Assembly (NCBI GenBank): GCA_017459345.1
Contig: JAFUDC010000139.1
Location: forward strand, 1-40,471
Length of the DNA: 40,471 bases
Direction: 5' to 3'
DNA from: Eubacterium sp.
Lineage (GTDB): Bacteria; Bacillota; Clostridia; Lachnospirales; Lachnospiraceae
Every line of letters starts with the position of its first letter. The first letter of the stretch is position 1. A program made the translations under genes and the position numbers. The notes below the pieces were generated by a model. It was not told the origin of the DNA. It did not search any database and saw only the letters and a list, made by a program, of their open reading frames with translations. Shown here in pieces: positions 36,937 to 37,029 of this stretch.

Positions 36937-37029
36937 GAGCCGGATTTTGTCTCGATTGCGTAGCAAGAGAGGTACAAAATCGGGCATCCGACAATTTAAG
37001 TCAGAAAAAAACAAGTGTTTTTAGAGGAG
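36937..37029 (+). ncRNA. Structured RNA element, copy 2, directly before atpE
   Basis: Nearly identical to 26667-26737 over 36937-37008 (one substitution in a loop, one inserted T). The same long stem, inner TTGC-GTA-GCAA hairpin and alternative CGGAT/ATCCG pairing are possible. The distal hairpin is AAAAAC-AAGT-GTTTTT (37007-37022), different in sequence from copy 1 but the same in shape. The ribosome site TTAGAGGAGG (37021-37030) of atpE follows at once, so folding could control atpE translation. The c subunit needs about ten copies per complex, which makes control at this spot plausible. Confidence 0.7.

Follow-up and report, generated by a model that had tools for sequence, protein, structure and literature searches.

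A dispersed structured repeat before atpE in a Eubacterium genome that probably inserts after GGAG and replaces the Shine-Dalgarno sequence

The element before atpE

The window analyzed here is the whole stretch of 40,471 nucleotides of Eubacterium sp. contig JAFUDC010000139.1, and all positions refer to it. Near its right end is an open reading frame (ORF) at 37039..37305 that we take to be atpE, the name given in the original prediction. The gap between atpB and atpE holds a structured element, and a second copy of it lies about 10 kb upstream. We read their parts as follows.

36936..36939, + strand: target GGAG, the putative remnant of the atpE Shine-Dalgarno sequence (SD) from before the insertion
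36940..37029, + strand: putative inserted element of 90 nt, CCGG...AGAGGAG
36936..36989, + strand: long hairpin P1, GGA-GCC-GATTTTGT ... ACAAAATC-GGC-A-TCC, apex GTA triloop, drawn from covariation and loop counts
36990..37002, + strand: hairpin P2, GAC-aatttaa-GTC, directly 3' of ATCC
37007..37022, + strand: hairpin P3, AAAAAC-aagt-GTTTTT, variable in sequence and covarying
37023..37030, + strand: new SD, AGAGGAGG, of which AGAGGAG is the right end of the element and the final G is the host's
37039..37305, + strand: atpE (c subunit), the gene whose SD was probably replaced
26670..26758, + strand: second copy, after TGAG at 26666-26669, at the 3' end of the ORF 25580-26668

Comparing 36937-37029 with 26667-26758, we found the core shared just as the original prediction had described it, apart from a single substituted base in a loop (GCGTAGC / GCGTTGC) and a single difference in length (AATTTAA / AATTAA). 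The adjoining hairpins, AAAAAC/GTTTTT and AATAGC/GCTATT, were also as described, and in two of their pairs both bases differ. Each copy terminates in TTAGAGGAG. At the second copy, TGAG overlaps the stop codon that closes the ORF before it. After this copy there is no start codon opening a 50-codon ORF, and a terminator-like hairpin lies downstream at 26789-26813.

A large family of copies in one genome

With its own atpE copy as query, blastn gave at least 42 rows for the genome, the query itself among them, and at least 41 reach E<=1.2e-5; of 73 candidates, 40 were scored. These rows are not a count of copies, since two or more copies appear twice. As the original prediction had proposed, a covariance model was also built and searched with. 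This model, R1, was made from 35 copies in this genome (alignment A1) and revealed a large dispersed family, with 109 matches at E<=5, of which 85 stay within E<=0.01; two of the 109 lie outside the loci inspected. Between them, the blastn rows and the model matches across the genome put the similarity of the two window copies beyond chance. Among the 72 matches that reach 30 bits, one (C38, + strand) is a reverse-strand echo of another copy, which occurs because P1 is palindromic. Many copies in this genome are degraded, and some consist of the right half only, behind an unrelated hairpin or other sequence.

Three alignments were used. A1 came from a loose pattern that found 44 places, from which six mis-hits were dropped (one each in L006, L010, L012, L018, L028 and L038); four real or partial copies are also omitted (the second module of L010, L026, L037 and L039), and the copy in L006 was added, giving 35. 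A2 comprises 91 rows, the matches at E<=1e-4 in 100 loci; this genome supplies 71 of them, and three other genomes plus a named metagenome-assembled genome (MAG) supply the other 20. It includes the reverse-strand echo in L018. A3 holds 21 copies outside this genome, eight of which are also rows of A2, and was aligned with a model trained on this genome alone.

The general layout is target GGAG, P1, ATCC, P2, AGA, P3, AGAGGAG and start codon, and the length is 90 nt at atpE and ~69 nt in the compact form of genome G075. Over the 91 copies of A2 the four target positions are G in 81, G in 79, A in 86 and G in 79; single deviating targets are GTAG in L010 and TGAG at the second window copy. There is no terminal inverted repeat, as the first 20 nt match the reverse complement of the last 20 at three positions. 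Two copies, in L113 (this genome, contig C134) and L255 (G338, contig C262), carry an extra insert between P1 and P2; the one in L255 is a near-perfect hairpin, perhaps another repeat at the P1/P2 junction.

Structure and covariation

In A1, pairing holds in 88.3% of cells and both bases have changed in 41, compared to 16.3 in shuffled alignments, with none of 500 shuffles reaching 41; the count of pair types is less clear, 45 of the 500 matching it. In A2, 87.1% of cells pair and 269 are double-changed, against 86.8 in shuffles and at most 80 when the structure is slid along the alignment. In both alignments, none of the 500 shuffles attains the observed covariation score or double-change count. 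The 21 outside copies of A3 give 90.0% pairing and 97 double-changed cells, against 35.3 in shuffles (0/500) and at most 30 when slid, while 105 of 500 shuffles match the pair-type count. All of these double-change counts are inflated by relatedness, and A2 and A3 were fitted to the structure of the model. Because the P1 sequences of G075, G338 and G709 differ so much, a common structure is the plain reading.

P1 varies from copy to copy, and P3 has six pairs, just before the SD. Most of the pairs of P3 are changed on both sides in A1 and A2 (five and six of six, respectively), and three of six are in A3. P2 has three pairs that are almost invariant, so it gives little covariation to judge. 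The hairpin d(GCGNAGC) is unusually stable as single-stranded DNA, and 41 of the 91 copies have a GNA triloop at the apex of P1. Wobble cells number 109 against 101 A-C cells over all pairs, and 76 against 60 in P1; since wobble pairs are not clearly above A-C mismatches, nothing clearly indicates selection acting specifically on the transcribed strand.

The original prediction had also pointed to two exclusive pairings of CGGAT as a possible switch. The alternative pairing is present in the atpE copy, but a CGGAT 5' arm together with ATCCG occurs in only 28 of the 91 aligned copies, and we rejected switching as a feature of the family.

Position relative to genes

A start codon with an ORF of at least 50 codons follows within 2-19 nt in 58 of the 72 matches of at least 30 bits in this genome, compared with 561 of 3144 random control positions (17.8%) on the matching strand of those loci. 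The end of AGGAG is separated from the start codon by 6-10 nt in 47 of the 58. Outside this genome, 16 of 21 copies stand before a start codon and ORF. The other 14 of the 72 have no start codon; some are tandem units, one is the reverse-strand echo, and some stand where a contig or locus stops or a second SD follows. Startless copies include the one at 26667 in the window and those in L008, L009, L092, L093 and L110. Many copies at random sites, with no ribosome site or gene after them, had been named beforehand as what would speak against a cis-regulatory RNA. Copies are indeed many, but most have both a ribosome site and a gene after them.

The downstream genes are unrelated, and reading their proteins by eye we saw no functional theme. 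Besides atpE, we take them to include nusA, secA, purB, ychF, leuA and HPr, and presumably also a carboxyltransferase-like decarboxylase subunit, dapF, truA, aroA, glnS and others. HPr is an exception in that its element lies upstream of the true SD.

Element-free sites, junctions and tandem copies

At 41 orthologue loci of eight element-bearing genes, we found an ordinary SD and no recognisable element. For atpE, 22 further loci in 21 genomes of the genus have ordinary leaders such as ATTTAAGGAGGAATTTATTATG, while the leader in this genome reads GTATTTTAAGGAG, then the element, then GAATATATTATG. Leaders without the element were likewise found in relatives for nusA, secA, mmdA, leuA, purB, ychF and oadA, the relatives compared being those of G001, G004, G011 and G023 where the gene was found. 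The junctions can be followed in some of them: GTATT precedes the start of secA in this genome and in two of four relatives, and the left flank of mmdA is TATGGAG here and ATGGAGGA in relatives. In G023 a copy lies between murD and ftsW, genes that overlap or nearly touch in the relatives compared, and ~30 nt comprising P3 and the SD are repeated on both sides of it.

A gene-level permutation over these eight genes and 41 orthologue loci, with HPr and an ACT-domain gene left out, showed that the spacer to the right of the element resembles that of the orthologue (0.62 versus 0.54 for permuted genes, p=0.005). The 8 nt of left flank were not orthologue-like (0.41 versus 0.39, p=0.25), and both junctions together gave p=0.02. 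The permutation replaced an earlier comparison of spacers (0.55 versus 0.43 for other genes) in which HPr was left out and the rows were not independent. Because the left-flank test is non-significant, the precision of the left junction rests on the single cases of atpE, mmdA and nusA, together with the GGAG that the copies have in common. The foot of P1 also requires GGA, so GGAG as a target and GGAG as part of the structure are partly confounded. Recognised copies occur in only three of 24 genomes of the genus (this genome, G004 and G023), which argues for insertion rather than loss, although weak copies could be missed in that count.

Head-to-tail copies were found in L019, L020, L106, L109 and L111, and on contigs C33 and C174 of G338. 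In these tandem units, a copy begins directly after the SD-like end of another, which is often older or shorter.

Some other sites are harder to read. The atpE leader of G004 contains GCAACCGACAATTAA, which resembles the element and overlaps the end of atpB, and this may be a chance resemblance or a decayed copy. By eye, apparently orthologous genes carry an element in two species in two cases, L125 (this genome) with L074 (G004) and L142 (this genome) with L079 (G023). The paired elements are quite different in sequence, as would be expected of either old shared insertions or repeated insertion at the same SD.

Predicted effect on translation

RNA folding predicts that at atpE the old GGA pairs with UCC at 36987-36989, with an unpaired probability of 0.04. 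In 28 copies that score at least 50 bits, keep both ends (GGAG and AGGAG) intact and have a start codon, the mean unpaired probability was 0.14 for the old GGA, 0.66 for the new SD (0.24-0.94 in single copies) and 0.55 for the SD of a modelled empty site. With the old GGA mostly paired and the new SD open, the element is predicted to hide one SD and present another, without obviously hindering initiation.

Distribution among genomes

Beyond this genome, the element was matched in two further species of the genus and in seven further genera of the same family, probably Lachnospiraceae. R1 run over 195 relatives matched this genome (G000), G004, G023 and G075, and in a search of 40 genomes three were carriers, this genome counted. 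R2 gave matches in seven of 397 genomes of the family (G000, G075, G201, G233, G266, G338 and G405) and, among 391 genomes of the class, only in G000 and G709, both belonging to the same family. These large searches miss copies because of their stricter filters and the sampling of groups, and the genomes compared are mostly drafts in many contigs. The family name rests on an exact pattern match in the MAG Lachnospiraceae bacterium RGIG4930 from roe deer rumen (L149, L151), a genome possibly identical with one of those numbered here.

Two patterns had no match in viral contigs, and a single viral-contig match to a third pattern was without hairpins or SD and was taken as chance. The same applies to a match in Rhodopirellula (L150), which also lacks the hairpins and SD. 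No match to the atpE copy was found by blastn in plasmid and phage collections.

A riboswitch, a regulon or a mobile element

The original prediction read the atpE element as a cis-regulatory RNA, possibly a riboswitch that responds to Na+ or another ligand and controls translation of the c subunit. Its description of the layout was sound, in that the structure is conserved, the stems covary and the leader ends in a ribosome-binding site, but the riboswitch reading is unsupported. The DUF1646 or Na+ riboswitch class is in Rfam. A cmscan with Rfam gave no match at the gathering threshold for either window copy, nor for any of five copy-bearing loci drawn from this genome, G338, G075 and G709, and at E<=5 the region 36900-37060 gave five chance-level matches (E 0.57-4.3), none of them a Na+ riboswitch. 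Na+ riboswitches of the DUF1646 motif are reported beside ATP synthase genes (PMC9337991), and the present element is like them in being a structured RNA beside such a gene; it differs in having no sequence or structure match in Rfam and no sodium theme in its genes. By eye, we saw no sodium or cation association among the downstream genes, which include atpE and two decarboxylase-like genes. Given the lack of a model match or a gene theme, and the plain SD before atpE in relatives, a Na+ riboswitch is unlikely. A riboswitch for any ligand is in our judgment very improbable, as numerous copies stand before genes unrelated to one another, no gene directly follows the second copy of the window, the wobble excess is not clear and the CGGAT switch is confined to a minority of the copies.

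More can be said for a dispersed translational regulon, in which a shared factor such as an RNA-binding protein, a small RNA or temperature keeps the copies in place, whatever their mobile origin. The copies sit at SDs with normal spacing, the structure is common to copies of eight genera, and the old and the new GGA are both possible partners for UCC. Against this, the downstream genes have no functional theme, wobble and A-C cells show no clear asymmetry, many copies are degraded and carriers are few (three of 40 genomes in one set and seven of 397 in the other, with this genome in both). We therefore regard such a regulon as improbable; some copies may have a regulatory use, but nothing here calls for it.

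Copy number, structure, position, empty sites and tandems are read directly from the sequences, and from them we infer that the copies move, and how. We consider it very probable that the stretch 36940-37029 belongs to a small mobile element, non-autonomous, whose copies insert in a single orientation directly 3' of GGAG. This tetranucleotide is very often the SD of a gene, and as the right end of the element is itself AGAGGAG, GGAG would then stand on both sides. The old SD would be drawn by its GGA into pairing with the UCC of the element, forming the foot of P1, and the right end would become a new SD at the normal distance from the start codon. With the new SD correctly placed, translation would survive, so that even core genes could tolerate an insertion. 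Each insertion would also recreate GGAG at the right end, and head-to-tail copies are therefore expected.

A compatible refinement, which we think somewhat likelier to be right than wrong, is that the enzyme takes GGAG anywhere, and that the location at SDs reflects the purging of coding insertions, SDs being one common form of intergenic GGAG. The startless copies listed above fit this, and insertions into GGAG within coding sequence would mostly be lost. It removes only an active preference for SDs, and with these data it is inseparable from the main explanation of a mobile element inserting after GGAG.

As to how such an element would move, our leading candidate, put forward tentatively, is single-strand transposition by a Y1/HUH-type enzyme, as in IS200/IS605 and REP elements. 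This is read from the one-sided target tetranucleotide, the subterminal hairpins, the right end that equals the target and the lack of terminal inverted repeats; the single orientation and the tandem copies are further IS200/IS605-like features.

Search for a transposase

Matches to Y1_Tnp were found in seven of nine carriers tested, some of them fragments, and none has a copy nearby; the 16 Y1 loci scanned contained no copy of the element. No autonomous partner or linked transposase was found, and no transposase gene was seen within or next to any copy. The only Y1 transposase found in this genome belongs to an IS605-like element (L212, contig C134) with tnpA, an IS200/IS605 family transposase, and a long divergent ORF that is presumably tnpB. 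We rejected this element as the partner, its ends being unlike by eye and no model match lying nearby.

REP-type transposases occur in one of the nine carriers (G233) and in eight of 31 genomes without recognised copies, and none was found in this genome. The REP transposase was rejected as mobiliser because it was not found in eight of the nine carriers tested. The G233 locus (L268, 1459-2172) encodes a stand-alone REP-type-like tyrosine transposase that scores 69.4 bits, below the NCBIfam cut-off of 80; the gene downstream of it is, we presume, comM-like.

Comparison with known repeats

IS200/IS605 elements lack terminal inverted repeats and insert in one orientation at the target. Hairpins just inside the ends and insertion on the 3' side of a fixed tetranucleotide are described for this family (PMC6006769), and our element is alike in both respects. 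It has the fixed 5' tetranucleotide and the end hairpins, and no terminal inverted repeats, with the left-flank permutation non-significant. In contrast to these insertion sequences, no transposase was seen inside or beside the copies, and the IS605-like element of this genome has, by eye, other ends.

REPs are described as hairpins of 20-65 nt tagged by GTAG or GTGG and found predominantly downstream of coding regions (PMC6006769, PMC8266576, PMC3733652). As portrayed there, the REP/RAYT (TnpA-REP) system resembles our family in its numerous short, scattered copies, in the tetranucleotide at the base of an imperfect hairpin and in the presumed recognition of single-stranded DNA (PMC6006769, PMC8266576, PMC3733652). 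Our element differs from REPs in having GGAG, mostly an SD, three hairpins and a new SD as its right end, and most copies are directly upstream of start codons. GGAG rather than GTAG or GTGG is the rule over the 91 copies, and no RAYT gene flanked by repeats was found in this genome.

To our knowledge, the BOX, RUP and SPRITE repeats are neither tied to the SD nor replace it. These pneumococcal repeats are small, interspersed and structured, and some are transcribed into UTRs (PMC3049150); like them and like MITE-like repeats, our element is a small interspersed structured repeat. The MRSC-65-2 mobile or repeat motif is described in PMC11109978 as a single long stem with a UYCCGG repeat and, compared by description, is not obviously the same. 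Among the titles and abstracts listed in searches of the open-access literature, we found no repeat that targets or replaces the SD. We file the element as a small dispersed mobile repeat.

There is perhaps an even chance that this represents a dedicated class of mobile elements that dwell in SDs, where the host SD serves as target and as one strand of the terminal hairpin, is switched off and is replaced. Such a class would spread through core genes and leave them unsilenced, rewire dozens of 5' UTRs and provide a potential shared translational switch. Mobile repeats in the start regions of genes would be expected to damage the gene. If our interpretation is true, an element that carries a working ribosome-binding site and settles on that of the host could proliferate in gene-dense genomes, even before atpE, nusA and secA, and would be a ready source of new 5' UTRs. 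It also gives reason for caution in riboswitch discovery, as strong covariation before a ribosome site can stem from mobile DNA.

Other RNAs in the window

The window contains two RNAs of described families. An FMN riboswitch (RF00050, 105.7 bits) lies at 27748-27882 on the + strand, upstream of the ORF 27979-29106, and a Clostridiales-1 RNA (RF01699, 87.3 bits), an RNA family already described, lies at 18148-18313 on the - strand.
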